Source: Parvularia atlantis
Lineage: Eukaryota; Opisthokonta; Rotosphaerida
Length of the DNA: 27,316 nt
Reading direction: 5' to 3'
Assembly: GCA_943704415.1 (NCBI GenBank)
Contig: CALSCO010002277.1
Location: 1 to 27,316, forward strand
A program made the position numbers and the translations under genes. Shown one piece after another: positions 1 through 25,022 of this stretch. The notes under the pieces were generated by a model that ran no database searches, had not been told where the DNA came from, and was given only the letters and a program-made list of their open reading frames with translations. Positions within the stretch are counted from its first letter, which is position 1, and the number at the start of each line of letters is the position of its first letter.

Positions 1-3000
1 ATGAACCGCCGAATGCAGCCGGTAGGACAAGGTGGGATTGTTCTGGATGCAAGGCGTATGAGTACCAGTTCTGTTGCGCGTACCGGCTACATGACGCGGA
101 AAATTGGCGGTCGCCTCGGGCGCGCGGCTGTCGACGACAAGGCCGACGGGCGCGGCGCGGCCATGCCGCCGTCGGAGCTGGACGTGGCTCCGGCCGCCGC
201 GGCCACGGCCAGCAAGAGCGCGGCATCCAGGTCCGCCACGCACACACACACACACACACTGACCGCCGCCGCCGCTGCTGCTGCCCGCGCAGACGCGTGA
301 ACCCGGCCGCGCGCTTCTTCTTCGTCCGCGGCTATCTCGACGCGCCGCTCGCCGACGGCTTCTACGCGCAGCCGCGCGACCGCTTCCGCCTGCTCAGCCT
401 GAACGAGTTCCGCACGCTGCGCCCGCCTCCGCAAGAGGCCGACGGCGCGGCGGACGTGGACGAGCCGGGCGAGAGCAGGACGCGGGCCGCCGTGCACGAA
501 CCGCGGCGCCGCCGCAGCACCGCCTCGTCGTCCACCGCCAGCGCGGCGAGGTGCACTGCACGCGCCCATGCTCGATCGAGCTGTCGCTCACGCCCGCCCG
601 CCCGCCGCCGCCGCCGCCGCCAGCACGCCCGTGGTCGCCGAGATCGACCTCGACGCCGAGCCGGCCGCCGACGCCGAGGCCGAGGAGGCCGCGCTCGCCA
701 GCCGCTCGCCACGTCAGCGGCGGCCGTCGTGGAAGCGCCGCGAGAGCACGGGCGACGCGGGCGCACGCAGCGGGTCGGACGGCGCGGCGGCCCTGCTCAG
801 TGACCCCGTCATCGCCGCGGCCCTCGGCCTTGCGGGCATTCCGCGCCCGGCCGGCGCCGCGCCCGACTACGTTGTGGCGATCGAGCGCAGCGACAGCGAC
901 CTCGAGCGGTTTCGCCACGCCGCCGTGCAGCGCCTCGAGTCGGTGCGGTCGCGGCGGTTCCACGCGCGTGTGATGGAGCTGGTGGCGATGGTGCGCGCGC
1001 GCCTGAGCCACCACCACACCGACAGCATCTTCTGGGCCGAGGTCACCGAGCACACGGCGCGATCGCAGTCGGTCGTCGTGCCGCTCGGGTGGCTGCGCAG
1101 CGGACTGGCGGACGAGTGTGCGCTCATGTTCAAGCTGCTGTGCGACGCCTGCGCGATCGACTGCCGCGTCGTGCGCGGGCGTGGGCCGCACGACCGCGAG
1201 CACGCGTGGAACTTTGTGCGCGAGGAGGGCGAGCGCTGGCACCTGGTCGACGTCGTGCTCAACGTCAAGCACCCGTGCCCGTCCGAGGCCGCCGCGCTCT
1301 ACACGATGCTGCGCGGCCGCGTCAACGGCGCCCCGAGCGACGAGCACCCGTTCCAGCCCGAGCTGCACGTGCACGGCACCGACACCGCCGAGGACAGCCG
1401 CGAGGCCGAGCTGGTCGTGTGCGACACGCCCGAGACGGTCGTGCGCACGGGCGGCGTTGCGGTCGTGTGCCCGTGCGATGACATGGAGGAGTTTGGCCTG
1501 ATGGTGCAGTGCGCGCACTGCGCCGGGTGGTCGCACGCCGTGTGCCTGCGCATGGACCGCCAGACGGCCGACACGGTCGACTACCGCTGCTGGCTCTGCA
1601 CCTGCCTGGACGACGCCACGGCCCGCGCCAAGATCTTCGCGCTCGACCGCCACCAGCACGTCGTCGCGCTGCACGCCAAGCTGCTTATGCGCCGCCAGGA
1701 ACTGCTCCTCCTCGACGCGCAGCAGGAGCACCAGCAGCCGCACCAGCAGCACCAGCAGCACCACGCCTCGCTGAACGACAGCGACCGCGCGCGCTCCGCC
1801 AGCCTCGACGGCCTCGCCGCCGGCAGCACGACGCTGCTCATGTCGCCGTCGGCGTACGCCCAGGCGATCGGGCTGAGCAGCCCCGGCCTAGGCGGCAGGA
1901 GAGCGTCATCGTCGTCGGCGACGTCGGTCGTGTCGGCAGGGACGTCATCGGCCGTCGCGACCTCGCCCGTGCACCACCACCACCATCATCACCACCACCA
2001 CTACCACCATCATCACCACCACCACGTGCTGCACAAGCCCGGTGCGCCCCCGGCCGTCGTCACAACCGCGTCGACCACGACCACGACTAGCTCGGTGCCT
2101 TTGCCCGCCGCGCGCGCGCGCACGACCAGCGGTGCCGGCGTGGTCTCCGTCTTGGCCGACCCTGAGACGCCGCTCAAGCTCCGCCTCGTGCTCAAGGCGC
2201 CATCGGCGCAGCCGTCGGGCACGGCCGCCTCACCGCCGTCGGGACGCAGCCACTCGCTGCCCTCGCTGCTTACACAGCGCCGACCGGTGCGAGCGTTCGC
2301 GCGCCCTGGTCATCGGCCGCCGGCGCTGACCCACTCACGCGTGCGCGCGCGCGCGCGCGCGCAGTCCGCCCCGCAGCGTCCGCTGCCCCTCCACGGCAGC
2401 AGAGACGACGAGAGGTGCGTGCCGCGCGGTCCTGCCGTGCGCTGCTGCAGCTCAGCGCCCCCGCGTGCGCACAGCCCGCCCGCGAGCCCCTCGGCCAGCA
2501 GCGCGCTGCAGCCGTACCAGCCGCACGCGCGCCTGTCGTTCCCCGGCAGCGGGATCGGCCCGTCGGCCGCCGCCGCGCGCGACAAGGTCGCCATCCCGCC
2601 GCGCCCGCCTTTCTCGGCCTTCCTGCTCTTCACGCGGACTGTGCGGCGGCAGCTGTACGCGGCGCGGATGCAGGCCGATAGCGTGCGCATGCTGCATGTG
2701 GCGTCGCAGCGGTGCGCGCCGGTGCGGGTGCGGGCGCACGCGGGCGTGCTGACGCGGGCGTGCGCAGCTGGAAGACGATGACGGCCAACGAGCGTTTGGG
2801 CTTTGAGCTGCTGGCCGAGGCCGACATGGACCGCTACGACAAGGACTTTGCGGCCTACACCGAGCAGCGGCGCGTGATCGCCGCCAGCGCCAACAGCCGG
2901 GCGGCCGCCGCCGCCGCCGTAGCAGCCGCATCGGCCGCCGCCGCAGCAGCCGTGGCCAACTCGACCGTCGTGTCGCGCGCCAGCTCGCTCTCGCATCGCG

Positions 3001-4132
3001 CCTCGCCTTCGCCCGCGAGCTCGCCCCGCAGCTCCGTGTCGCTCGAGGGGAGTGCGCCGGTCTCGTCGACGGCGTCGGGCCGGCACATCAGCGCGTTCAA
3101 CAGCCTCGCCGCAGTGATCCGGCGCGAGATGCAGGGTGCGCATGGACACGCGCGCGTGCGTGCATTTGTCACTGACACGCGCGTGCCGCTGGCGCAGCCC
3201 GCGGCCTCACGCCCACGCTGGCCGACATTAGCCGCGCGACGGCCGACCGCTGGCACGGCATGTCGGACGACGAGCGCCAGGCGCTGCTGCTGCAGGTGTC
3301 GCGCGACCGCGACGACTACGACCGGGTGCGCGCTCCTGCGGCGCGGTGAGACTTGCGCGGCTGACAAGTGCGTTTTCCGTCGGGGCCAGGTGCACCAAGG
3401 CGGCGCCCTCAAGCGCAAGACGTCGTCGTCGCACGGACCCGGCGCGCGCAACAAGGCCGGCACGCCGCCGCCGCTCTCGCCCGCGAGCGACACGTCGCCG
3501 TCGCCGATGTCGCCGCCGCACGGCATGCAACAAGCGGTGCGCGCTCCCGTGCGGCGCCCATGGGCCAGTGACTGTGACTCACGCGGCACATGCGCGCGTG
3601 CGCGCGCGCACGCGCGCCAGTCCTCGCCGTTCTCGATCCGGCGCCGGCGGCGCACGAGCACGGCCGACTACGACATCGACAACATCATTGTGCCGATGGA
3701 CATGGCCCCGGTACGACGCGTGCGGGCTGTCGCGCGTGTGCACAAACGCTTACGCTTACGCGCATTTAGGCGGCGATCGAGCCCATCCGCGTCAAGGAGG
3801 TCTACACGCCGACGTGGCGCGTCTCGGACGACGGCGCGCCCGGCACGGCGTACTTTGGCGGCGCGAGCGTGGCCGCGACGCCGTCGACGTCCGTGCTGGC
3901 GTCGCCGCTGACGTCGCCCGCGCCGCTGGTGGCGCTACCGCCGCCGGTCATGCCCGTGGTCAAGAGCGAGGCACTGCCGTCGGGTGAGTGGTCGGCCGAT
4001 GGCGACGAGCCGGAGGAGGACGACTCGGACGCCAAGTTTGAGCAGCTGCACGAGCCCTTTGAGCGGGCGGAGCGGGCACGGCTGCCGATCGCGGTGATCA
4101 ACCGGCGTCCGTCGGCGCCGAAGCTGCTTTAG
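1..4132 (+). CDS. EDR1/transglutaminase-like, PHD, double HMG-box, PEHE-domain chromatin protein
   Basis: Ten exons fit: 1-230, 293-550, 624-2286, 2365-2414, 2475-2711, 2768-3135, 3198-3325, 3390-3536, 3621-3710 and 3770-4132 (TAG). Phases close exactly, giving 1177 aa if ATG 1 is the start; ATG 58 or 172, or an upstream exon, is possible. Domains in order: an EDR1 (CTR1-type) domain opening with FFVRGYLDAPLADGFY (300-350) and containing a transglutaminase-like core with Cys (1117-1119), His in HAWNFV (1201-1203) and Asp in LVDVV (1249-1251); a Cys4-His-Cys3 PHD finger (1468-1599); Gln/His and poly-His linkers; an HMG box split by an intron (about 2596-2872); a second HMG box (about 3075-3325, LADISRATADRWHGMSDDER); and a PEHE domain (3621-4110) with YDIDNIIVPM, TPTWR and a terminal HEPFERAERARL block. 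In KANSL1/MSL1 the PEHE domain binds MYST acetyltransferases, so a scaffold role in a histone-acetyltransferase complex is inferred. Whether the N-terminal fold is an active enzyme is unknown. The domain calls are firm; the combined function is not. Confidence 0.85.
241..259. repeat. (CA)n microsatellite in first intron
   Basis: Nine CA units lie inside the proposed intron 231-292 of the PEHE gene. They run directly into the CTGAC branch-like motif, followed by a GC-rich stretch and the CAG acceptor. Length variation here would change only intron length. The donor of this intron (GTCCGC) is weaker than the usual GTGCG. Confidence 0.85.
1972..2025 (+). repeat. Poly-histidine tract in the PEHE protein
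   Basis: In frame, the sequence encodes ten His, one Tyr and seven His from mixed CAC/CAT codons. It lies in a long Ser/Thr/Pro-rich linker between the PHD finger and the first HMG box. A Gln/His-rich stretch precedes it at about 1717-1764. The codon mixture suggests selection on the peptide or an old repeat rather than fresh slippage. In other nuclear proteins such tracts favour speckle targeting or metal binding; neither can be shown here. Confidence 0.9.
2343..2362. repeat. (GC)10 dinucleotide run in an intron
   Basis: Ten GC units sit immediately upstream of the CAG acceptor of intron 2287-2364 in the PEHE gene, where a pyrimidine tract would be expected in most eukaryotes. The tract could adopt Z-DNA, but this is inference from composition only. 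Confidence 0.8.
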
Positions 4133-6775: not shown

Positions 6776-9114
6776 AGCTCAGCAGCTTGCGCAGGTGCGC
6801 GCTCAGCACGAGCTGGTCCGCGAGCTCGGTCACGCCCAGGCGCGGGAGCAGGCCCTCGAACGCAAACTGCGGCGACGTCTTGGCGATCGCGGCCAGCTCC
6901 AGCAGCGCCACGCCCGTCATCGTGCCAAAGTGCTGCGAGACCACGTCCTCACCCACGCGCGCCGTTCGCACGAGCCACTCGGTGACCTGCGCCGACGTCC
7001 ACTCCTCGATGGCCGAGCGGCGCAGGCCCGGTGCCCGCGCGTGGTCGCTCGTCGCGACCGTATTCTGTCCGTGCGTGTCACGCGGCAGCGCCTGCCCGCA
7101 CCAGGTGAGCGCACCTGGAAGTTCGAGAGAGCGTTCGCGGCCGCGAGTGCGCGCCCGCGGTGGCCGAGTTCGCGGATTAGGCCCTGCATGCGCTGATCAA
7201 AGTCCCTCGTCTCGCTGAAGTCGTAGTATAGCCTCGAGCCTGCGTCGAGCGCGTGAGAGGGCGTCCCGCGAGAGCGCCGAGCGCGTGAGAGGGCGTCCCG
7301 CGAGAGCGCCGAGCGCGTGAGAGGGCGTCCCGCGAGAGCGCCGAGCGCGTGAGAGGGCGTCCCGCCAGAGCGAGTCGCGTACCAATGATCATGCCAAGCC
7401 ACCCAACCGGCTTGAACGACTTTTCGACGATCAGTGGCACAATGTCCTTGCGCTTCGAAAAGGCGTAGTCGGCCTCGGAGCGGCAGTTGGGCGACTCGAG
7501 GTACAGTCGCGACGCGCACACCTGCCGCGGGCATCAACCGGGGCCAGTCAGCGCGACGGTCACGCACGAGGATCACCGACGCATCCTCGACCGCCTTGGC
7601 CATCGCCTCAAGCGTGCTGCCGCGCATCTGCTCCACGTCAATCCAGACCTGCAAGGGACACACTTAGCGTCCGGCCGCGGTCGAGAAACAGCAGCGCGCA
7701 CCGTGTACCCGGCGCGCTGCAGCGCCTCCTTCACACGCAACACCGTCGGCTGGCTGTTCCAGTTGTACGAGAGCATGACATGCCCGAGCGTCGGCACGGA
7801 CACCTCACCGCTGCCGGGCGCCAGCGCCACCGCGCTCGTCCCGTCGATCTCCCACAGACAGCCGAGAGCGTTCTTGTAGCCCGGGTGTGACGGCGTCGCG
7901 GCCATTGCGCGGATCGCCTCGATCGCGTCGGCGTTCTGGAGCATGCGCTCCTTGTTGTCCTTGAGGAACGCGAGCGCCCAGAGCGCACCGACCGCCGCGC
8001 CCTTGTCCTCTGCGTGCGTGCGTGCGTGCGCGCGGTCAAAGCGGTGCTCAGCCGGGCAGCGGCGGCCGCACCGTCGCTCATGTGCTCAGTCGCCGTTACG
8101 ACGCGCAGCAGCTGCTTGAGCACGTCCGACCGGCCGATGCTCTCCTTGAGCGCGTTGCCCGCGGCGATGCGCTGGATCGAGCACGAGATGTCGGCCGCGC
8201 TGAAAAAGTTGCGCTCGCCCTGTCGGCGCGCCGTCAGCCCACGCCGCGTGGTGCGCGCATCGCCGAGCGGCACCTGCAGCACGTCCTGCAGCCCCGAATT
8301 GAAGTAGCCAATCATGTCGGGGCCGATCTTGTCCAGGCGCTTCTGGTCCTCCGTGCCGAGCACATTGGCAAGCACCATGGCGATCGAGAACGAGGCAAAG
8401 TCGCTGCCCTTGGCGTGCAGCTGCAGCAGCGTCTGCATCGCGCATTAGAGAGCAGCGAGAGCGGCGAGGCGCCGGGCACACGCACCTTGAGCGTGTTCTC
8501 CTTGGCGACCTCGTCGCGCACAGCCGGATCGTTGGTGAGGAAGTAGATGGCGTGCACGGCGCGGACGATCGCGTTGGTCGCGTCGCCCTGGTCGAGGATG
8601 GCGATGAGCAGCTTGATGACGTCGGTGTTGACCATGAGCGCGCGCAGGTCGGCGTCGCGCGCGCAGTTGGCCAGCATCAGCGCCGCGTGCTCCTGCGCGT
8701 CGTTGTTCTTGTGTGCGCGCAGCACGACCGTGACGACGGGCAGGCCGCCGGCCTCGTGGATCGCGCGGCGGTACGCGCTGTTGTAGTACGAAAGCGAGCG
8801 CAGGCACAGCACCGCGGCCGTCGCGGCTTCGTCCACCGTCACGCGCTTGGCGCCGCCGAGCCCGCCACCTGAGACGCTCGTGCCGCTCTTGACGACGCCC
8901 ACAAGCGGCTTGATCGCGCCCGCGCGCACGACGTCGTCGGGCTGGGCGTCGTTGTTGTTGTCTCAGTTTCGCAGTGCGCGCACACGCTGCCTCTCCAGAC
9001 GGCACAGCGCACCTGCTGCTTATCCCACGCGATCGCGCGCAGCATCCGCGCCGCCTCGGCGACCTCGGCCCGGTCAGGCACCGCCAGGTGCCGCACAAGC
9101 TCGTCCGCGCTCAT
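6765..9114 (-). CDS. ARM-repeat, TIR, SAM protein (SARM1-like, permuted)
   Basis: Nine exons on the complement: 9114-9013, 8941-8486, 8432-8274, 8219-8072, 8009-7702, 7648-7568, 7521-7383, 7239-7115 and 7064-6765. They close in phase to 605 aa. The N-terminal 350 residues are armadillo-type helices ([46 protein letters not shown]). A TIR domain follows: [65 protein letters not shown]. The Glu of NCRSEA (7474-7476) sits where TIR NAD+ hydrolases keep their catalytic Glu. The C-terminal about 80 residues resemble a SAM domain ([37 protein letters not shown]). SARM1 orders the same parts ARM-SAM-SAM-TIR. NADase or immune-type signalling, held in check by the ARM region and oligomerised by SAM, is inferred by analogy. 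ATG 9114 is the first Met; an upstream exon cannot be excluded. The domain calls for ARM and TIR are strong, for SAM moderate. Confidence 0.88.
7251..7366. repeat. 32-bp tandem repeat inside a TIR-gene intron
   Basis: Units start at 7251, 7283 and 7315 with a diverging fourth at 7347. The first three look identical. They fill intron 7240-7382, making it 143 nt, about 2.5 times the usual size. On the coding (minus) strand every unit carries CTCACGCGCTCG, which includes the CTCAC branch-like motif, so the intron holds four equivalent candidate branch sites. Confidence 0.92.
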
Positions 9115-9255
9115 CGCCGTCTGACGCGCCCGGAAAAGCGACAGCGTCTGTCACAGATCTGGAACATTCGCGGCGCTTCGAGAGCGGTCTGCTCACGGCT
9201 CTCTCGCGCACACAGGCCGCGCCTTCGCCCCCGTCGCCCAGCCCACCCGCAAGCC
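9115..9255. promoter_or_regulatory. Divergent promoter region, ARM-TIR-SAM / ATP synthase gamma
   Basis: Only 141 bp separate the two predicted ATGs, so one short region must drive both genes. No TATA box is visible. A CTCAC...ACACAG stretch (about 9190-9215) looks like an intron 3' end on the + strand and might belong to a leader intron of the ATP synthase gene. Confidence 0.5.
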
Positions 9256-9338
9256 ATGCTCGGCGGTCTCGCGCGTCTCAGCCTGCGCGCCGGCGCCGGC
9301 GCCGTGTCGGCCACGCCGCTGGGCAGGTGCGCGGCAGT

Positions 9339-9373
<35 letters not shown>

Positions 9374-10688
9374 AAAAACGAGCGGGCCGCGTGGGCTGAC
9401 CCAGCCCGCACGCGCCGCGCCCGCCAGCCTGCTGCCGCAGCGCGGGATGGCCACGCTCAAGGAGCTCAAGCTGCGCATCTCCTCGACCAAGAACATCCAG
9501 AAGATCACCAAGTCGATGAAGATGATCGCCTCGACCAAGCTGCTGCGCGCGCAGCGCGACATGGACAAGGCGCGCGTGTACGGCAAGGCCTCGGCCGGTG
9601 CGGCTTGCCGCCTTTCCCCCCGCGCTGACCGTGCGCGCTGACCGTGCCGGCATCCCGTCAGACTTCTACGTGAGCGCCGGCACCAAGAGCGGCGCCACGG
9701 GTGAGAAGCAGCTCGTCGTCGCCGTCTCGTCGGACAAGGTGCCGGCGCCCGTTTTTCCGTGCGGCACACGGCGCTCACGGCGGCGCGTGCGCAGGGTCTC
9801 TGCGGCGGCATCCACGGCTCGATCTCGCGCAAGACCCGCGCGCTGGCGCAGGTCAACCCCAACATGGACATCATCGTCATCGGCGACAAGTCCAAGGCGC
9901 AGCTCATGCGGTGCGGGGCAGTGCCGTGGTCGCGACGGCCGTGCGGCGCGCGCGCGCTCATCGGCACGGCGCACAAACAGCACGCTGAGCAGCAAGATCA
10001 TCTGCGCGTTCAACGCCGTCGGGTCCAAGCCGCCGAGCTTCCTTGACGCGATGCTCATCGGCGACGTCATTCTGCGCGCGCCCACGCCCTACAGCAGCAC
10101 GACGCTGATCTACAACCGGTGCGCGTGCGCCCCCGGTGCAGCGCGTGTACGTGTGGGCTCACGGCCGCCACGCACAGCTTCAAGTCGGCCATCCAGTTTG
10201 ACACGACCGAGCACCCCGTGTTCTCGATGAGCCAGCTGCTGGCGTCGGGTGCGTGCTGCCTCCACCGTCGCGTGCTGCGACGCGTGCCTGATGTGCGCAC
10301 GGCGCCGCGCAGACAAGATCGACGCGTACGAGGTCGAGGACGACGTGCTCCAGTCCCTGCAGGAGTTCAACCTGGCAAACTCGATCTTCTCGACCATGGC
10401 CGACGGGTACGCGGCCGAGATCGCCGCCAAGATGTCGGCCATGGAGAACGCGACCAATAACGCTGGTGCGCTGCCCGCGCCTGCGCGTGCCCGCGTGACC
10501 TGGCGCTGACGCGCGACGGCTCGCGCGCGCAGGCGACCTCATCGGCAAGCTCACCATCGTCTACAACCGCTCGCGCCAGGCCGCCATCACGACCGAGCTG
10601 GTCGACATCATCACGTAAGCGCGCGCGTGCGCCGCGTACCCGCATGCTCTGACGCGTGCCGCCGTGCAGGGGTGCCTCGGCGCTGTGA
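9256..10688 (+). CDS. ATP5F1C: Mitochondrial F1-ATP synthase gamma subunit
   Basis: Nine exons: 9256-9326, 9428-9597, 9662-9738, 9795-9910, 9981-10118, 10178-10248, 10313-10465, 10533-10614 and 10670-10688 (TGA). They close in phase to 298 aa, the length of the human protein. It begins with a mitochondrial presequence ([15 protein letters not shown]) followed by the family hallmark [19 protein letters not shown] and [10 protein letters not shown]. Later hallmarks are [16 protein letters not shown] in mid-protein, [14 protein letters not shown] and a C-terminal ELVDIITGASAL. The subunit is the rotating central stalk of F1 in the mitochondrial matrix, coupling proton flow to ATP synthesis. It is split by eight introns, is head to head with the TIR gene and runs tail to tail towards the helicase gene 116 bp away. 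Nothing suggests loss of function. Confidence 0.97.
9340..9378. repeat. (GA)n plus A10 in first intron of the ATP synthase gene
   Basis: About fifteen GA units pass into ten A within intron 9327-9427 of the gamma-subunit gene, upstream of the CTGAC branch-like motif. This is the purest purine tract in the window and makes the intron (101 nt) longer than most. Confidence 0.9.
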
Positions 10689-10804: not shown

Positions 10805-13800
10805 TCAGCGCTGAGCCCCGCTGCCCCCGATCAGCTGCTCCCACACCTTCTTCTCCCACGGCACGAAGCGCCCGTCCGGCTGCTGCACGCGCACGTTGGA
10901 CGCGACGCTGATCTTCATCACGCGGTCGCTGATCTCGTATGTCCCGACCGGGTGCCCGCCCTTGCACATCACCAGACCCTTCAGGCCGTAGAACGCCATG
11001 CCGCGGCACTTGTCCTCGTCCAGCTGCGGGCGCGCGCGGGCGCACAGCGTCAAGCGAAGGCGTCCGGCGCGCGCGTGAGGCGGGCGCGCAACCTTGAACG
11101 TGACGTCGTTGGGCTTGCGCGGGTTGGCGTTGGGCAGGTGCGTCATGGCCGAGAACGGCGCGACGGGTGCGTCGCACGTGCGGCACACGATGACCAAGCC
11201 CTTCTCGCTGCGGCGGGTGGCGTGAGCGACGCCTTCCCCTGTACGACCCGCCCCACGCACGACTCGAGCGTGGATTTGGCGATGCGGTCGTACACGGTCT
11301 CGACCCGCGTCGACAGCACCATGTCCTCGCCCTCGTCTGCAGCGCCGCCGCACGGTGAGCAAGCGCGCACACCAAGAGCCCGCGCGCAGGCACGCACCGC
11401 CGTTCTCGCCGTGCTCCTTCAGGCCCAGCGGCTGCATCTTTGGGAACAGGTTCTTGTCTGTAAGGCCGAGGCGCTGCACGCGCTCCGACAGCGGCCGATG
11501 CGCGTCCGTCACGAAGCCGACGCGCGTCTTGAACGCTGCGGCGTGAGCGTGAGTGCAAGGGTGTGGGCGGTACACGGCCCGGGCGCACCAGGCGTCGCCA
11601 ATGCCGGCGCTGCCGTGCTTGTGCTGTTCGCCTTGCTGTCGTCCTCTTCCCAGGCCAAGTCGGCGTTGGCCGGCGCCGTGTCGGCGTCCAGCGTCCAGTC
11701 CTGCCGGGCGAGCGGTGGGCCAACGCGCGTCTGGCACAGGCCAGCGCACCTTGGAGTCGACCGTAAGGTTGAGGAACGATTTGGTGATTTCGTTCAGCTT
11801 GCGCGGCTTGGCGATCAGCTCAAGCAGGCTGGCGCCCGGCCGTCAGCTGCACGTGCGGCGGTCGACGACATCCGACGCACCGGCGCTTCATCGTGAGCGA
11901 GCGCTCGCGCAGCTGCTCGCGGTCAAACAGGTCCTTGATGACCAGCTGCTCCAGGTCGTCGCTTGGACGCGTCGCGCGTCAGTCCCCTCGCGCGCAGCGC
12001 GGGCAAGGCGCGCACCGGATGCTGTTGATCAGCTGCACGTCGCGCTCGCCAAAGCGCGCGTCAAAGTTGAACTCGTAGTTGCCGATGCGCACGCCGGCGT
12101 AGCTGTGTGTGCGCGAGGCACGGCGCGGCTCAGTAGATGCCGCAGCGCGCACCGCGGCACCGCACGTCGTGTTGTCGTTGCTCGGCATCAGCTCCGTCTG
12201 CGTGTGCGTGAAGAGCATGCACAGCAGCGCCGGCAGCAGCGGCCGGCCCTCGAGCAGCGTTGTGTTGGACGCCTGCGCGCTGTTTAAGCGGCGCACGCAA
12301 GCGCACGGGTGCCCGCACCTGCAGGTCGCTCGACATGCCTGACGACGTCGCGAGGCTCGGCGAGACCATCACGTAGCGCTCCGCGTACGAGGGGTCCTTG
12401 CAGAACACAACGCAGTTGACCGAGTCGTTGTGCACCTGGAGCGCTGGCGTCAGCGCTCCCCGCAGCCACAGCAAAGCGGCGCCGCACCTTGATGTTGGAG
12501 AAGCCGGCAAACTTGGTGAAGCGCAGCTGGAACGGGAACTCAAACTCATGCGCGCCGATGTAGTCCTTCGGGTCGCGCGAGATGGTCCTGGCGCGGGCGC
12601 AGGTCGTCAGTGCGCGCAAGCCGCAGCACCTGATGATGTACTTCTCGTTTGCGAGGCGGTTGCGCCGGCGCTCCATCTGCCAGCACTTGTACGCGTGGTA
12701 CACGGCCATGGGCACGTCGGGGATGACGATCTGTGTGCTTGTCAGGCGCCGCGCTCACCAGACGGCGCGCTCCGCTCACCTTGCCCGTGCGCGGGTCACG
12801 CGTGAGCGACAGGTCACGCCCGTCCGGGCCCTTGACTGGGTTCTCAAACTCGATGAAGCACTTGGCGCCCTCGATGAACAGCTTGGAGATCTTGCCGCAC
12901 CGGCGGAAGTACGCCTCGATGTGCTTGTCGACGTTGTGCGGGAACGAGATCGAGCTGCGCCCGGGCAGTCAGGCGGCGCACACACGCAGTGCGCGAAAAA
13001 AATAATAACGGCGCACCTGCGCAGGATGATCGTGCGCCACGGGTCATAGTTGAGCGTCTGGTTGAAGCCCGCGTCCTTGGCGTACATCAAGTCGCGCTGG
13101 GCGGCGCCGTCGCGCGGGCTCAGCCACCTCGCAGCACGAAGAGCAGCGCGCGCCGCGCACCTTGTCGCTGGGCATGCTGAGGAGGAAGTTCGGATAGAAC
13201 GCGGCGCACAGGAGCAACTTCAGCAGCGTGAGATCGGCCTGCGCGCGCCGGCATCAAGGGGGAGACGGGCTCGCCCTCAGCGGCGCCCGTCACCTCGTCA
13301 CGGCGGAACAGCTGGTCAACGTCCACGTCGGCGCCAGTAGTCTGGCTGAGCACGGTCCAGTACGTCTTCTTGATCTCCTCGGTCTGGCCGCGAGAGGCAG
13401 CGTGGGCGGCGCGCGGCGCAAGTTGGGCGCGAGCGCACCGCACGCTCGGGGATCTGGATGCCCACGCCGTCGAGGCGGTTGGTCAGGTCCTTCATGATGT
13501 CCTCAGCCTCGCGCATCTTCTGCAGGTTGATGAAGTAGCGCCGCGCCCAGTTGCGCTCGTCACGCGTGTTGAGGCGGCCGATGCGCTTGAGGAACTGCAT
13601 TACGGCGCGGCGAGCGTCACACACAGCACGGCACCGCCGCGCCGCACCCTCCACGTCTCGAACGCACGCATGCCCGCGATCGCGTCGCTCCAGGATCCGC
13701 CGGCCCACTGCAGCTTCATTTTAAAAAACTGCGGGTGGACGGTCAGCCGCCAACCCGCACGGCGCATGCACGCAGCACCTCAAAGTCACGCTGGAACGGG

Positions 13801-14797
13801 CGCGAGAACACGCCAGTGCCCGTGAGCGACATGCACGCCGCCATGATCAGCGCCTCCTGCGGCAGGTCGAACGCGATGCCTGTGCGCAGCAGCGTGTGAG
13901 CGCGTCTGCAGCGCAGCGAGTCCGTCTGAGCGCACCAAACACGACCAGGCGCGCGAGGCGGATGTCGACTGGCAGTGCAGCGTAGATCTCGCCCAGGCGC
14001 GTGAGACGGCCGGTGGGGTCGTTGACGGTCTGCTTGAGAAAGTTGACGACGTTGCCGGTTGGCTCGTTGGCCAGCGCACCTGGGCGGCCGGGCAAGCGCG
14101 CGCGCGTGTCAAACAACATGTCTGGTCGCGCGGCACGGGCGCACCGGCCTCGGTCAGGATCGTCAGGCTCTCCTCAATGTTGGAGATGTTGGGCGGCTGC
14201 ATCGCCAGCTGGAGCACGTCGCGCGGGTCGCCCACCTTGAGCACCTTGACCTGGAGGATCAGGTGGTCGAGCGACGTGCGCTGGATCTCGGGCGTGGCCT
14301 GCTGGAACATCTGTTGCTCGAAGAAGCGCGAGGGGATGAGACGGAAGCACACGCCGTTTTGCACACGACCCGCGCGGCCCGAGCGCTGCACGCAGGCCGA
14401 CTGCGACGCCCATGCCAGCCGCAGGCCCTCCAGCTTTGTGTTTTGGTCGCAGTACACCTCCTTGACCAGGCAAAAGTCGACGACGTAGCGCACGTCGGGC
14501 ACCTGGCGCCGACGGGGTTGGTACGCGCCTGCGGCCGCCGTGTGGCGCACCGTGATCGACGACTCGGCGATGTTGGTCGCGATGATGATCTTGCGCATGC
14601 CCCGGTCGGCGCCGCGGAAGACACGTTGTTGCTCGTCGCTGTGGCCCCGCACAAGCGGCGTAAGCGTGGCCAAGCGCAGCCGCGCGCGCACCTGTTGAGG
14701 GTCGAGTGCAGCGGGAGCACGATCAGGCTGCGCTTAAGGTCGGCGTCGTCGATGCGCTCGTCGATCAGGTCGTACAGCTCCTGGATCTCGGCCAGAC
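10805..14797 (-). CDS. TDRD9/Spindle-E-like DExH RNA helicase, C-terminal part, with zinc module
   Basis: Exons on the complement: 14797-14692, 14638-14551, 14502-14145, 14079-13936, 13879-13779, 13728-13648, 13594-13439, 13383-13294, 13238-13161, 13096-13017, 12954-12780, 12730-12630, 12587-12488, 12435-12319, 12272-12166, 12102-12016, 11961-11881, 11828-11750, 11700-11589, 11535-11398, 11336-11261, 11207-11093 and 11023-10805. The second RecA domain is clear: GLAEIQELYDL, LIVLPLHSTLN, TNIAESSIT (motif V), QRSGRAGR (motif VI). A winged-helix/ratchet region follows, as does the TDRD9-specific succession LQKMREAEDIMKDLTNR, FYPNFLLSMPSDK, an RRM-like HIEAYFRRCGKISKLFIEG and LLCMLFTHTQTELMPSND. 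After that comes a segment I do not know from TDRD9: VCRTCDAPVAPFSAM and FYGLKGLVMCKGGHPVGTYE, resembling the Yippee/Mis18 or RIG-I C-terminal zinc folds. Motifs I and II (Walker A, DExH) are absent because the gene stops at 14797. In animals TDRD9 acts in piRNA silencing; the role here is unknown. Confidence 0.85.
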
Positions 14798-17800: not shown

Positions 17801-20800
17801 GCTGCCCGTCGTGGAACAGGCTGTCGCGCAGAACGCACAGTCGGCTGAGAGCAAAGGTGCGTGCCGATGCCGCGCCGTTCTGTGCCACTGACCGCACACG
17901 CAGCGTTCCAGGCCGAGGCACTCGCCTTCCGCTCCAAGATCGACAACGGCATCATTGAGCGGCTGCAGGGCGCGCGACAGCTCATGTCGGCGCTGAGCCA
18001 CATCACGGCCATGACGAGCGCGTCCCAGTCTGCGGCGTCGTCCAGTGGCGCGCCCGGGGCCGGCGGCGTGTGGAACATTGACCGGTTCCTGCCCGACCTC
18101 GTCAAGCTCGTGCAGGTGCGCACGCGAGCCGCTGGTAAGCCAGGCTGAGCTAGCACGCGCTGCGCAGAGACTTGCCACCGACTACATCGCAGCGCGTGCC
18201 GCGCCCGGCGCCCAGCAACCGAACGCCGTCGCCGCTGCTGCCGCTGCTGCCGCGGCCGCCACTGCTGCTGGCGCAAATGGCGCCGCGCAAGTGACACCGG
18301 CGGTGCGTGCCCGCCGCCAGTCGTCTGGCCTGAGCGGCTGATGGTCGCGCAGGCTTCGGCCAACCCGGATGATGCGCCCATGAAGCTGTTCCCGGTCCTG
18401 TTCCCCGTGCTGCAGGGCCGCCTCGCGGCGATGGGCGAGCACCGCAAGGCGTTCCTGACTTCCGTGCTGTCGCTCGTGGACGCCAAGTCGGAGGTCTGGT
18501 GCTCCGTTATCCCGCACGCTGCCGGTGCCTGACGACGGCTGCGCAGTTTGAGCTCATCCGCCTCATAACGCAGGTGACGGCCGAGTGGATGTCGCTGCGT
18601 TGCGTCGCCCGTGCGCGCTTGCACAATCGCACGCACTCACCACCACTCGTTGTTGCGCGCGCGTGCGCAGACGGCGTGGGCTCGCTGCCGTCGCTCAAGG
18701 ACAAGACACTGCTGATGGTCAAGCTGATGACGTACGAGCGCAAGGACGACGACAAGCTGACCGAATCGTTCCTGCACATCGTGCGCGACGTGTACCTCAA
18801 CCCTGCGCTGCGCGGGTGTGTTTGCAGGTCGCGCGCGGGCCGTGTGTGACCGGGGCGCTCGCAGCACCGAGCTCACATCCAAGCTGGAGCCGGCGTTCCT
18901 GTTTGGCTTGCGCTGGAAGAATACGGCGCTGCGCAAGTGCGTCGGCGAAGCGCACCTAACGCAGCGGCTCACTGCGACCGCACGCCGCCAGGGAGTTTTT
19001 CGACGTCTTCCACGCGTCGATGGAGACGAGCATGTTCAAGCGCCTGTTCCACCTGATGGGCGTGCAGCAGTGGCAGAGCGTCTCCATCAGCACCACCTTC
19101 TGGCTGGAGCAGATCCTCGACGCCTTCCTCGCCGTGGCTCTGCGCCAGACGCCGCTCGGCGTGCCGCCCGAGGTCGTGCAAACGCGGCCGATCGCGAGCT
19201 TCGAGACGGGCGGGATGGAGCTGAAGCCGTCGGCCGAGTACGCTGTGGCGCCCGCGGCGCGCCATCCGCATGTAGCTGACGGCGTTTGGCCGCGCAGGCT
19301 TGTGGCGCTCGTGCGCGCACACCAGACGTTCCTGGCCGCGCACGCCAACACGACGCTCGACACGGTCGTCGACCCGCTGCGGCGGCTCTGCGTCGGCAGC
19401 CGCGTGATCACGCAGCGCGTGTGGGTGGACCTGTTCCCGCGCGTCTGGGACCGGCTGCTGCCCGAGGTGCGTGCCACTCAGTGCTCGCGGTGCCTGACCC
19501 GCGCTTCTGCGTGGCAGCAACGGCACGACCTGTGCAAGGCTACGATCGACATCCTCAAGAACGAAAACTACGCGACGTCGCAGGTGCAGCCGCGGCCCAA
19601 CGTGATCCAGGTGCTGCTCGAGAGCGTGACGCGGTGTTCGCCGCCGATGCGTCTTCCCGCCGCGCTGGTCAAGTGCGTGCGCCTGCTGACTATCGCGAGC
19701 GTGCACTGAAGCCCAGAGTCGCGCAGGTACGTCAGCCGAATCTACTGCGGCTGGCACACGGCTGTCGAGTATCTGCACGGGTGCGCCGCCGGGATGCTCG
19801 ATGGGCACGCGCTCAGCTCGACGTCACGCAGGCTCGTCTCGCGCCCGCGCACCGAGATGGACCTGGCGCAGCTGTCGGTGGACGACGACCAGGCACGCGG
19901 CCGCCTTCAAGCGGGTGTTGCGTGCGCCTGACGCGCGCTTGCAGGCCACGGAGAACGGCTGGGTGGCGCTCGGCGATCTCTACACGCTGCTGAGCGAGGA
20001 CGACTACTTTTGCGGGTTGTGGCGGCGCAAGGCGAGCTTTGGCGACACAAACGCGGCGCTGTCGTACGAGCAGACCGGGTGAGACGCGTGGCGGGGACGT
20101 GCCCTTTCGTCTGCTGACGGGCCTTGTGCAGCAACTGGGCGCGCGCACAGGAACTGTTCCTCAACGTGCAGAACAAGGCGCGGAGCGGGTCCATTCCGTT
20201 CTCCGAGGCCGAGTACCATCTGTGGCAGGACCACTCGATCCGGTGCGCGCTGCATGCTGGCCGCGACCACGTCTCTCACTGGCGCGCGCCACAGCTGCGC
20301 CAAGAACCTGCAGCAGTGGGACGTGCTGTCGGACTACGGCAAGCAGCAGAGCGACCGCGACCTGCAGCTCGAGTGGTGCGGCCTCTCAGCGCAGTGCCTT
20401 CATCAGACTGACGATTGCGGCGCCAGCTGCTGGAAGCTCGGCGACTGGCCGACCGAGTCGCAGCTGCTGCAAAACATCCTTATGACGCAGACAGACCTGC
20501 ACGACCCCAAGCTGCGCATCTTCGAGGCGATGGTGCTGCTGCAGAACCTTCAACAGAGCACGGACAACGCGGCCAAGATTGCCGAGGTGCGTGACCCTGC
20601 GCGCCCCGTGCAGCAACAGCTCAAACTGACCCACGCAAAAAAAAAAAAAAAAGGCCGTGCACCGCGTGATCGAGCGCGGCACGCAGTGGGCGATGCTTGC
20701 GTGGTCCGCGCTGCCAGAGATTGTGTCGCAGCCGCACATGAGCCTGCTGCAGACGTTCCAGCAGTTTGTCGAGCTGCAAGAGTCGATCTCGATCTACCAG

Positions 20801-22280
20801 TCGATCCTGCCGCCGTCGGGGACCGGTGCGCACGTGCAGCGATGAGCGATGGGGCTGACGCGTCGTTGTCGCAGCGCCGAGCGTGGCACAGATGGTGCAG
20901 GACCTGAAGGGCACGCTGGCGACGTGGCGCGAGCGCCTGCCAAACAAGTGGGACCCGATCAACGTGTGGACGGACCTGCTGACGTGGCGGCAGCACGTCT
21001 TCACGGCCATCAACACCGGTATGGTGGCGAGCGGGTGAGGTGGGCGCGCTGACATCGCGTGTCTGGCGCAGTGTTCCAGCAGCGCGTGCCGTCGGCGGAC
21101 GCGGCCAACGTGCACACGTATCTCGGCTATCACGAGACGGTGTGCTGCGGCCCGCACAACTGCCCGCCGCTGACATGCGCACGGGGTGCAGGCGTGGACA
21201 ATCAACCGCTTCAGCCACGTCGCGCGCAAGCACCAGCTGCTGGACGTGTGCCTGATGTCGCTCGCCAAGATCTACACGCTGCCCAACATCGAGATCCAGG
21301 ACGCGTTCTTCAAGCTGCGCGAGCAGGCCAAGTGGCGCGTGCTGCATTTGCGCGTGTGGCCAGCAGCGCTCTGACGCCTCGTGTCTCGCACACAGCTACC
21401 TGCAGCCGGGCGCGGACCTGTCGATGGGCCTGGACGTGATCAATAGCACCAATCTCTCGTACTTCAACGAGAAGCAGAAGGCCGAGTTTTTCTGCCTGAA
21501 AGGTCCGCGTGTGCAGCCGCTAGCGCAAGTTTTCCTCACGTGCTTGCTCAGGCATGTTCCTGGAGCGCCTCTCGACGAGCAACGGGCCTGGCAACGCGCA
21601 GCTCAGCGCGACGGCGCAAGAGGGTGCGCATTCTGCGCGAACGTGCTCAGGCGCCTCACGCACTGGCCGCTGCAGTCTACTGCCAGGCGACGCAGATTGA
21701 CGCGACGCTCGGCAAGGCGTGGGCTGTGTGGGGCAACTTCTGCGACCAGCTGCACCGCGACTCGGCGGCCAACGTTGCGCTCGGCGGCCAGGCGATGGTC
21801 TGCTACCTGAATGCGTGCCACACCGAACGGCCCGACCGCGCCAAGCGGGTGCGGCTGCGCGTCTGCGGGCTGGTGACACGTGCTGACGCCGGGTGTAGAT
21901 ACTCGCGCGCGTGCTCAGCCTGCTGGCGCAGGACGTGCAGCGCGACACGTCAATGGTGGCGCAGCACTTTGAGGACAACTGGGAGATGGTGCGCGCCCGT
22001 GCTGCTTGCGGTGACGCTGCGACACCCACTGACCGTGCCGTCACAGGTGCCGCACTGGTACTGGATCACGTACATCCCGCAGCTGCTCAATGCGCTCTCG
22101 CGGCCGGAGATGAAGCAGGCATTCCTTGTGCTGCAGACGTGCGCTGCCGACACACCGATGCGTAGTGCGGTCGGCTCCTGACACCGTCGTGCGCGCGCAG
22201 CATCGTCGACAAGAACGCCCAGGCGCTATACTGCGCCCTGCGCACGGCCCTGCTGGAGCTGCGCGAGAAGCTGCAGACGC

Positions 22281-22361
<81 letters not shown>

Positions 22362-25022
22362 TGCAGCAGCTTCATCTGCAACAACAACAGCAGCAGCAAC
22401 AACAGCAGCAGCAACAACTGCAGCAGCAGCAGCAGCAGCAGCAACAGGCCGACGGCGGCATGAACGACGGCCACGCCGCGACAGGCGACGGACAGACCAG
22501 TGCGCCGCACTTGTGGCAGCGATGTGCGCACGACGCTGACCGCCTGTCGCAGGCGCAACCGCACCCTCGCCAGCGGCATCCGGTACACCGACACCCGCAG
22601 CGGCCGCGGCCAACACCGCGGCGCCGATGCTGTCGTCGCCGCAACCCGCGACGCTGCAGCCGACGATGCCCGAAAACGCGCCGCTCAACGCGGTGTCGGA
22701 GCTCATGTCAAAGTGCGCGCCCGCGCCGAGCCTTCCGCCGCCGGTGCACGCTCACCTGCGACGCCCTTGCGCAGGCTCAAGTCGCACCACCCGCTGCTCG
22801 TGCTGTCGATGGAGTCGATGATCGAGGAGATGATCAGCAAGTTCAAGCCGCAGACGGACGAGGAGCTCTTCCGCATCGTGCTCACGCTCCTGGGCGAATG
22901 CTACCAGCAGGCCGTCGCGCGGCTCGGTGCGCGCACAGCTTGCAAAGCGGCCGGCGCTCACGGCACGTCGCGCGACAGGTGAACCGGCGCTGGCTGCCGA
23001 GGAGCGCCTGCCGCAGACACTCGAGGCCAACCTGCTCAAGATCTCCAAGTCATTCCTGAACACGTCTACCGCGAGCCAGAAGTTCAAGGAGCAGTTTGAC
23101 CGCGACTTTATCCAGGCGCGGAGCGCTGTCGCTCTCGCTTGCGCGCGATGCTGACCTGCGGCCGCGCGCCAAACGCAGAACAACCCGACGTTCCTCCAGG
23201 TGATCGAGAGCCTGCGGCGGTGGCGCGACCGGCTGCAGCTTGCGACCGAGCGGGTGCGCTTCGCTACCTGTCATTTGACGTGACGAAAAGATGACGCGCG
23301 CCCGCGCAGCTGTCGAGCCACGTGAGCATGGAGAACCTGAGCAAGCACCTGGCCGAGTTCCACCGCGCACGCTACGAGGACGTCGAGGTGCCCGGGCAGT
23401 ACATCTGGGCGCGCGACGCGGTCAACAATCAGGACTTTGTGAAGATTGACCGGTTCCTGCCGACCGTGCGCATCATCCGCAAGGTGCGCACCGCCCGCTG
23501 CCGTGCCGCTACGCGTCTGACGAGACTGTCGTACTGGGCCCCGCCAGCACGGCACATCGTACCGCCGCGTGACCATCCGCGGCACGAACGGGCGACTGTA
23601 CGCGTTTGTCGTGCAGCACTGGAGCGCGCGGCAGGCGCGTACGGAGGAGCGCGTGCTGCAGTTCTTCCGCCTGCTGAACGAGTGCGTCCGCAGCGCGTTT
23701 ATGTAGTGGCGCGTGCGCTCACCCGGTGCGCGCTGCGGCAGCGTGCTCGACCGGCGCAAGGAGACGCGCAAGCGCGGCCTGTTTTTCCATACGCCGGCGA
23801 TGGTGCCGCTGTCGCCGCACGTGCGCATCATTCAAGACGACCCGTCCTACGTGTCGCTGGTGCGTGGTGCGGGGCCCGTGTGGGTGCCGCCCGTGAGCTG
23901 ACACGCGCGTACGCGTCGCGCAGGAGGACGTGTACGAGGATCACTGTGCGCTCACGGGCATGTCTGCCGACGAGCCGATCGTGCACTTCCAGAGCCGGCT
24001 GCGCGCGTTCATGCAGCGCACCAACACGCGCGACAAGGTAGCGGGGCCGCGCGCCATCGATCGTTGTGCTACTGACGAGTGTGCGCGGCAGATCGAGCTG
24101 ATGACGCACCGGCTGGACGTGTACGAGGACGTGGTGCAAAACAAGGTGCCGAGCGACGTGCTCTCGCGCTTCATGCTGCGGTCATACGCGACGTTCACGG
24201 ACCTGTGGATGGGCCGCAAGCAGTTCACGCTGCAGTACGCGGCCGCGTCACTGCTGACGTGCGTGCGCGTCTGTGCCTGCCGCGAGCGCTCACGTGGCAC
24301 GCCTGCGCGCAGCTTCTCGTTCTTCATCGGCCAGCGCATGCCGCACAAGGTCAACATCGCGCTCAGCACGGGCAACGTCCTTGCGGGGTGCGGCTCTCGG
24401 GACGATGCGCGTGCGAGCAGAGAGCGAGCTTACACGGGCCGCGGCGACGCAGCGAGCTGCAGCCGCTGTTCAACGCCTCGTGCGACCTCGACTGCCCGGA
24501 GGCCGTGCCGCTGCGCATGACGCCCAATCTGCAGGTGCCGTTGCATGAAGTGTGCGAATGCGTCCCTGATGGCTTGCTGCGCAGCACTACATGACCAAGG
24601 TCGGCGTCGAGGGCGTATTTGTGGTGGCGATGATGTCGATCGCGCGCGTGCTCGTCGAGGTGGACCTGCAGCTGCCCGAGCTGCTGAGCGTGTTTCTGCG
24701 CGACGAGGTCATCTCGTTCCAGGCCGTCTCGCTCGCGCGCATGCAGCAGGGCCAGACCGTGACCGAGCCGTGGCTGTCGCAGCGGGTGCAGCACAACGTT
24801 GACGCGGTCATGGGGCGGCTGCGGACGCTCGCGTGCATGGAGCCGCCCGAGAAGGTACGCTCTGTGCTGCGCGCGTCTTTGTGTCGTGGCTGATCGACGG
24901 CGCCGCGCCAGGTCGGCATGACGCACTTCCCCGTGTTCCAGCCGATCCTGCGCATCATCAACGCCGCGACCAACAACCAGCAGCTGAGCCAGATGGACCC
25001 GACATGGCACCCCTGGATGTAG
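14860..25022 (+). CDS. TRRAP: TRRAP/Tra1 pseudokinase scaffold, 5'-truncated in this assembly
   Basis: About 57 exons starting at 14860, with TAG at 25020-25022 after DPTWHPWM (human ends DPAWHPWL). Landmarks: [10 protein letters not shown] (14882-14911), [18 protein letters not shown] (16550-16610), the micro-exon at 16921-16944, [31 protein letters not shown]-like [13 protein letters not shown] (about 19960-20020), [18 protein letters not shown], the FRB-like and PI3K-like region [16 protein letters not shown] (about 23435-23483) and the FATC end. As in all TRRAP/Tra1 proteins the kinase catalytic Asp and DFG are missing: [11 protein letters not shown] stands where the catalytic loop would be. 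Tra1 recruits SAGA and NuA4 acetyltransferases to activators in the nucleus. About 2,350 residues are visible; some 1,600 N-terminal HEAT-repeat residues are absent at the junction near 14.83 kb. Exon ends include 15442, 15567, 15969, 16679, 17436, 18115, 19237, 20586, 21848, 22499, 23483, 24258 and 24854. A poly-Gln insert interrupts the FAT region. Confidence 0.95.
15768..15819 (+). other. Candidate GC-AG intron in TRRAP
   Basis: Exon LVVLRRE ends before GCGCGC, and the next exon begins [14 protein letters not shown] after CTGAC...CAAGCAG. Treating 15768-15819 as the intron gives 52 nt, the modal size, in phase 0. The only GT alternative (from about 15789) would leave an intron near 31 nt, shorter than any other here. 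Confidence 0.6.
16921..16944 (+). other. 24-nt micro-exon in TRRAP
   Basis: Eight codons (TDMDTGRR) are bounded by ACACAG upstream and GTGCGC downstream, between introns of 65 and 58 nt. The peptide aligns with the acidic DSDMD stretch that follows the same helix in human TRRAP (KWELQRIKDQQPDSDMD), which supports inclusion. Skipping keeps the frame. Confidence 0.65.
19893..19944 (+). other. Candidate GC-AG intron in TRRAP
   Basis: Exon QLSVDDDQ ends before GCACGC, and the next exon begins [13 protein letters not shown] after CTGACGCGCGCTTGCAG. The intron is 52 nt, phase 0. GT alternatives would give an intron of 27-30 nt or break the phase. Confidence 0.65.
20637..20653 (+). repeat. A17 homopolymer abutting a splice acceptor
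   Basis: Seventeen A run straight into the G of the AG acceptor of TRRAP intron 20587-20654. The next exon ([14 protein letters not shown]) is conserved and in phase, so the acceptor must be there, preceded by CTGACCCACGC. Homopolymer length may be imprecise, but only intron length is affected. Confidence 0.8.
22283..22447 (+). repeat. (CAG)25 and Q-rich tract in TRRAP
   Basis: In frame, 25 uninterrupted CAG codons and a CAA (22283-22360) are followed by Leu/His-interrupted Gln runs with mixed CAG/CAA to 22447. It lies between [15 protein letters not shown] and a disordered Ala/Pro/Thr linker, in the FAT region ahead of the FRB-like part. On the other strand the same DNA reads as poly-Leu, which is only a shadow. 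Confidence 0.95.

Follow-up and report, generated by a model that had tools for sequence, protein, structure and literature searches.

A putative KANSL1-like acetyltransferase scaffold with EDR1, PHD, HMG and PEHE-like segments predicted in Parvularia atlantis

Introduction

In animals, histone-mark readers, DNA-binding boxes and acetyltransferase docking tails of the present kind occur in separate proteins. The EDR1 domain is poorly understood and is known mainly from plant kinases; to our knowledge, this plant-kinase type of domain is not known in a chromatin scaffold protein that combines such parts. Here we analyze a gene of Parvularia atlantis which occupies the first 4132 bases of contig CALSCO010002277.1 (assembly GCA_943704415.1) and which is predicted to carry an EDR1 domain, a PHD finger, HMG boxes and a PEHE-like tail. 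Throughout the text, the window means the whole stretch of DNA that was analyzed, which is the entire contig (27316 bases; C554 in the assembly). The genome searched was the 16.25-Mb assembly of 616 contigs.

As described in a review, the PEHE domain of animal KANSL1 binds MOF, its N-terminus binds PHF20 and MCRS1, PHF20 and KANSL1 are subunits of the same NSL complex, and the PHD finger of PHF20 reads histone H3 dimethylated at lysine 4 (H3K4me2) (PMC6607013). The table of that review has no entry for KANSL1 or for PHF20 in worm and Arabidopsis; since both are unlisted, the two appear, as far as this table goes, to be missing together there (PMC6607013). Another study reports that C-terminally truncated PHF20 fails to pull down the complex (PMC8867114). 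Proteins with the EDR1-type domain (PF14381) are described as similar to the C71 and C93 peptidases within the papain-like superfamily, and fusions of them to kinases are frequent (PMC10318531). Toxoplasma has a nuclear EDR1-domain kinase, and its authors state that the function of the domain is little known (PMC5874906).

Results

A candidate scaffold with a PEHE-like tail and a PHF20-like PHD finger

We estimate at roughly 0.55 the probability that the predicted protein is a scaffold like KANSL1 that docks MOF and brings its own PHF20-like reader. It would then presumably be nuclear and serve a MOF-type histone acetyltransferase complex as a single scaffold chain that is built like animal KANSL1 but carries additional modules. 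The C-terminal PEHE-like tail would dock MOF/KAT8 and stimulate it, the PHD finger, which is PHF20-like, would hold the complex on nucleosomes methylated at lysine 4 of histone H3, and MOF could then acetylate nearby histone H4. DNA binding of the bending type, with little sequence preference, may come from the HMGB-like box and probably also from box 2. The EDR1 domain, with its predicted papain/transglutaminase-like fold, is probably a protein-binding module.

The PEHE-like segment lies at 3803-4084 on the forward strand and consists of YTPTWRV at 3803-3823, a loop at 3836-3985 and DSDAKFEQLHEPFERAERARL at 4022-4084. The PEHE score was 18.6 bits on exon 10 alone and 17.8 bits on exons 9-10 (cut-off 34). 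After removal of the 50-residue loop (amino acids 1080-1129, between TPTWRVSDDG and EWSADGDEPE), it was 26.8 bits (E 8.4e-6), and none of nine shuffles of the trimmed tail matched any family at E <= 10. We regard the segment as probably a PEHE domain. PDB searches with PEHE segments returned only low-scoring, unrelated proteins. Upstream of the segment, YDIDNIIVPMDMAP (3669-3710) resembles the lead-in of KANSL1, and we treat this as a lead only; KANSL1, too, has a YDI(D/N)NI-type motif ahead of its PEHE domain.

The genome-wide PEHE scan returned a single place, on contig C433 (17.8 bits, E 0.044). We obtained there a spliced model of a GATA-like/PHD/PEHE-like gene of 370 amino acids (about 2885-4420 of C433, reverse strand), in which seven introns, all starting with GTGCG, were picked from candidates limited to certain donor types. 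The GATA-like finger scored 21.6 bits, below its cut-off of 26.8, and the PHD finger 27.1 bits, above its cut-off of 24. The PEHE-like C-terminus reached 17.2 bits within the whole protein, 18.6 bits alone and 26.5 bits when most of its loop was cut. We observed 34% identity between the trimmed tails of this and the present protein, with P-WR, SD, H-PFE and ER common to both. That both of these weak PEHE matches are in PHD proteins makes chance a less likely source of them.

The PHD finger, which is PHF20/SET3-like, is located at 1462-1599 on the forward strand (amino acids 443-488). It has the complete C4HC3 pattern with all eight zinc ligands (CPC..CAHC..H..C..CWLC within 1468-1599). The top PDB match was the PHD finger of PHF20 (32.3 bits, E 7.6e-7), followed by SHORT LIFE (29.6 bits), SET3 (29.5 and 29.4 bits), EBS (27.8 bits) and a second PHF20 chain (27.1 bits). 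SHORT LIFE is a plant protein and SET3 a yeast protein. Another PHD finger of the genome, on contig C250 (33% identity, E 0.011), was rejected as a candidate; judging from open reading frames read by eye, it seems to belong to another gene, one that has two PHD-like stretches.

A MOF-type enzyme and other NSL-type parts in the genome

MYST acetyltransferase exons are present on three contigs of the genome (8 matches). The enzyme on contig C316 is of the MOF/KAT8 type: it matched KAT8 with 427 bits, KAT7 with 375, Tip60 with 353, KAT6A with 337 and ESA1 with 325, and KAT8 led KAT7 by about 53 bits. In a database of 5.8 billion proteins, 5214 proteins matched it at E <= 1e-20. This database includes protists, as EukProt and MMETSP entries were found among the 120 best of these matches. 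A midpoint-rooted tree of 120 rows was obtained from 119 of the 120 best of the 5214 matches and the C316 enzyme (P0001 was dropped for partial cover). The enzyme fell in a 14-row group with P0002 and 12 rows including three named animals (SH-aLRT 98); outside that group were both the rows at the shortest path lengths from it and P0003, which had the highest identity (80%). At most, the tree hints at a placement among eukaryotes on the side of the animals. A relative may be the source of P0002, a MOF-type protein that the database lists under 'ena' with contigs up to 54 kb.

Further, contig C585 encodes an MCRS1-type domain (MCRS_N, PF13325; 49.3 bits over profile positions 2-86 of 199), and contig C350 a zinc finger of the KANSL2 type (zf-C3Hc3H, PF13891; 54.8 bits). 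PF13891 also occurs in INO80D and is hence unspecific for KANSL2. An MRG domain is also encoded in the genome. The PHF20 AT-hook family gave no match in the genome, in a search which matched in no control genome.

Two other observations concern acetyltransferases. The MYST exons on contig C312 have Cys/His-rich, PHD-like stretches upstream, as read by eye, and we presume this gene to be MOZ-like. An exon of a Tra1/TRRAP HEAT ring, an acetyltransferase-complex subunit, is found on the same contig as the present gene, at window positions 18960-19706 (Tra1_ring, 106 bits).

EDR1 domain and HMG boxes

The EDR1_CTR1_ARMC3 peptidase-like domain (PF14381) is present at 871-1257 on the forward strand (amino acids 246-374). 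It scored 52.6 bits on the whole protein, nearly twice the Pfam cut-off of 27, and 56.5 bits on a 319-amino-acid piece (profile 64-196 of 203). No other PF14381 match was found in the genome. Since the EDR1 domain and the PHD finger share one unspliced exon, their fusion needs no splice model. With regard to a Cys-His-Asp site, EHAWNF and LVDV occur in the translation; we find no ground for assigning catalysis to the domain here. The PDB search with the EDR1 domain gave just two matches, both at chance level, and a single-sequence AlphaFold model of EDR1-PHD alone was set aside (pLDDT 38). FFFVRGYLDAPLADGFYAQ (315-371, exon 2) appears to resemble the N-terminal EDR1/CTR1 motif.

HMG box 1 is present at 2599-2858 on the forward strand (amino acids 776-843), where it is split by the intron at 2712-2767. 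It resembles the A box of HMGB1, which was its closest match (E 3.6e-12). Alone, it scored 30.1 bits (HMG_box cut-off 25.4) over profile positions 1-68 of 69, and the HMG_box total across two stretches was 36.2 bits. The box is seen only once intron 5 is removed; this splicing renders it nearly complete, which supports the intron. HMG box 2 lies at 3075-3392 on the forward strand (amino acids 916-979) and is split by the introns at 3136-3197 and 3326-3389. Splicing raised its HMG_box_2 score from 16.6 to 19.9 bits, and a PDB search at E 0.1 gave zero matches for it. We regard this second box as probably real. The genome-wide HMG_box search returned 5 matches on 4 contigs and none within the window, where introns split the boxes.

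Gene model

Nine GT..AG introns of 56-84 nucleotides were chosen by eye, and all 512 on/off combinations of them were tested for an open frame. With all nine spliced, ten exons form a single frame of 1177 amino acids without an internal stop, ending in TAG at 4130-4132. It is quite likely that this is a single gene with an EDR1-PHD-HMG-PEHE-like architecture. In all closing combinations among those listed, introns 1, 2, 5 and 9 were spliced and introns 6 and 7 went together. Combinations retaining introns 6 and 7 likewise left the frame open, so the splicing of these two is argued by HMG box 2 and not by the frame. Retention is conceivable for introns 3, 4 and 8, the lengths of which are divisible by three. 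The donors read GTGCG in six of the nine introns and GTGCA, GTACG and GTCCG in the remaining three.

The GC content in 1-kb windows was 64-75% across the contig and 71-75% over 1-4000. Third-position GC was 0.88-0.98 for exons 2-10 and 0.72 for exon 1; this lower value makes exon 1 the least certain of all, and the start codon at base 1 is in doubt along with it. Since the gene starts at the contig edge, at base 1, its 5' end may be missing. We assessed the openness of frames by first-order Markov resamplings (n = 5000). The frame at 403-2781, which holds the EDR1 domain, the PHD finger and the N-terminal half of HMG box 1, was open in none of them, and the frame at 624-2286 in 7.

All exons are on the forward strand. 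Exon 1 (1-230) follows from the frame-consistent model and may be incomplete at its 5' end. Exon 2 (293-550), for which the frame model and third-position GC speak, contains FFFVRGYLDAPLADGFYAQ. Exon 3 (624-2286) encodes the EDR1 domain, the PHD finger and most of the Ala/Ser/Leu/His-rich linker. Exon 4 (2365-2414) is a microexon of 50 nucleotides, flanked by introns 3 (78 nucleotides) and 4 (60 nucleotides). The N-terminal half of HMG box 1 is in exon 5 (2475-2711), and its C-terminal half is in exon 6 (2768-3135) together with the beginning of HMG box 2. Exon 7 (3198-3325) is placed by the gene model, and exon 8 (3390-3536) is mainly a Pro/Ser-rich linker. Exon 9 (3621-3710) terminates in YDIDNIIVPMDMAP, and exon 10 (3770-4132) includes the stop codon. 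A histidine-rich run was also seen at window positions 1972-2025, inside the PHD-HMG linker.

An earlier note on this DNA had described one gene of ten exons in continuous phase, with an EDR1 domain and two HMG boxes. The EDR1 domain is confirmed. The open frame of 1177 amino acids speaks for the single gene, on the strength of the sequence itself. Of the two boxes, the first exceeded its cut-off after splicing, and the second stayed below and can be called probable.

Points against the scaffold and alternative explanations

Several results weigh against a MOF-docking scaffold. The domain scores are among them: in every form tried the PEHE cut-off of 34 was unmet, the trimmed match covered profile positions 2-47 of 127 only, and the removal of the loop was chosen after the weak score had been seen. 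PEHE was unlisted in the Pfam scan of the whole protein at E <= 0.5, and the genome-wide scan (E <= 1) that returned C433 missed the present exon 10. With a milder cut of its loop, the C433 tail reached only 21.5 bits, and in the PDB a profile built from the two PEHE-like segments found no MSL1 chain. The PHD finger was below both Pfam cut-offs (PHD_5, 23.2-23.9 bits against 27; PHD, 16.4-17.1 bits against 24), and the lead of PHF20 over SHORT LIFE and SET3 is narrow. HMG box 2 was also below its cut-offs (HMG_box, 18.8 bits against 25.4; HMG_box_2, 19.9 bits against 22.4, E 0.0012). One study attributes the chromatin binding of PHF20 in human cells to the Tudor2 domain of that protein (PMC8867114), which makes a weaker case for the PHD finger as the main anchor; no Tudor domain was found in the Pfam scan of the present protein (E <= 0.5). 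The KANSL3 hydrolase domain PF20408 gave no genome match at E 0.1 (10 of 14 control genomes matched), in an exon-by-exon search that may miss it. In the database of 5.8 billion proteins, two word-based searches found no ortholog of the whole protein: scored on residues 225-520 (EDR1-PHD), there were 4347 candidates, none at E <= 0.01, and scored on residues 1024-1075 (YDIDNI-TPTWR), 4 candidates, none at E <= 1; the word and length filters of these searches miss distant relatives.

The PEHE shortcomings, namely the scores under the cut-off, the partial profile and the absence from the whole-protein scan, would fit one gene for an EDR1/PHD/HMG chromatin or DNA-bending protein unrelated to MOF, with a chance motif as its PEHE-like tail. 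The nearness of the PHD finger to SHORT LIFE, SET3 and EBS agrees with it as well. We regard this explanation as unlikely, since it has to contend with the presence in the genome of two PHD proteins that have PEHE-like tails (26.8 and 26.5 bits with the loop cut; 21.5 bits for the second with the milder cut), with the shuffles, none of which matched, and with the 34% identity and the four motifs common to the trimmed tails. Two or more genes or transcripts, in which an HMG-PEHE protein lies downstream of an EDR1-PHD protein and is joined to it in silico, are quite improbable. Stop codons are rare at 71-75% GC, the PHD-HMG linker (1600-2711) was open in 208 of the 5000 resamplings, and it abounds in Ala, Ser, Leu and His, all of which would suit such a junction; against it, there are zero in-frame stops from the PHD finger to HMG box 1, whether introns 3 and 4 are kept or spliced, and third-position GC is at least 0.85 in 450-base windows spanning 1524-2423. 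The position of the gene at the contig end could point to an assembly chimera joining an EDR1-PHD sequence to an HMG-PEHE gene. We hold this to be very improbable, as the 792-amino-acid frame and the codon bias continue through the linker, the genome has one PF14381 match, and a genome DNA search with 1-400 as the query found the window itself as the sole match.

The earlier note had suggested an acetyltransferase scaffold with a PHD reader and a PEHE domain. We found all eight PHD ligands with PHF20 as the best PDB match, a trimmed PEHE-like tail at E 8.4e-6, two PEHE-like PHD proteins and a MOF/KAT8-type enzyme, which give the suggestion more weight; the Pfam cut-offs for PHD and PEHE were both missed.

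Remaining part of the contig

Elsewhere in the window, matches in open frames point to ordinary neighbours: an ATP synthase gamma-type match (8787-9638, forward strand), a weak helicase C-terminal match (13786-14730, reverse strand) and an HSP90 match (25289-26218, reverse strand). A long polyglutamine run in an open frame was observed at about 22283-22450, and a strong AT skew across 22001-23000.

Discussion

A more specific reading, which we offer tentatively, is that of a single-chain NSL module: a natural fusion of KANSL1 and PHF20, separate subunits in animals, with HMGB-type DNA binding and an EDR1 domain added. If true, the fusion would be a record of KANSL1 and PHF20 working as one unit, and would suggest that the pair forms a functional core of the NSL complex. 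Such a protein would also be an acetyltransferase scaffold built with its own DNA-binding boxes. The EDR1 domain would be placed in such a scaffold, a chromatin setting where its role is testable. Our literature search found no paper combining EDR1/CTR1, a PHD finger and an HMG box, and no paper linking KANSL1 with choanoflagellates.

The present protein has PF14381 in common with the EDR1/CTR1 Raf-like kinases, with ARMC3 and with TgTKL1 of Toxoplasma, and the last of these is an example of an EDR1-domain protein at work in the nucleus (PMC5874906). In place of the partners found in the EDR1/CTR1 kinases and ARMC3, it has PHD, HMG and PEHE-like segments; the Pfam scan (E <= 0.5) found no kinase or armadillo domain in it. 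As in HMGB1-type proteins, two boxes stand in series and the first is closest to HMGB1, but here the second box is weak and both are embedded in a large multidomain chain. The PHD finger of PHF20/PHF20L1 is the best solved match for the present one, which differs in being fused to a PEHE-like tail. The C433 protein likewise combines a PHD finger, a putative DNA-binding finger and a C-terminal PEHE-like tail; it lacks an EDR1 domain, carries a GATA-like finger where the present protein has HMG boxes, and is 370 amino acids long in our model. Compared with KANSL1, the present protein adds the PHD finger, the HMG boxes and the EDR1 domain, its PEHE match is partial (profile 2-47 of 127) and below the cut-off, and its docking of MOF is putative. 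It resembles KANSL1 in the C-terminal position of the PEHE-like segment, in the long chain and in the low-complexity linkers, and a MOF-type enzyme is encoded in the same genome.

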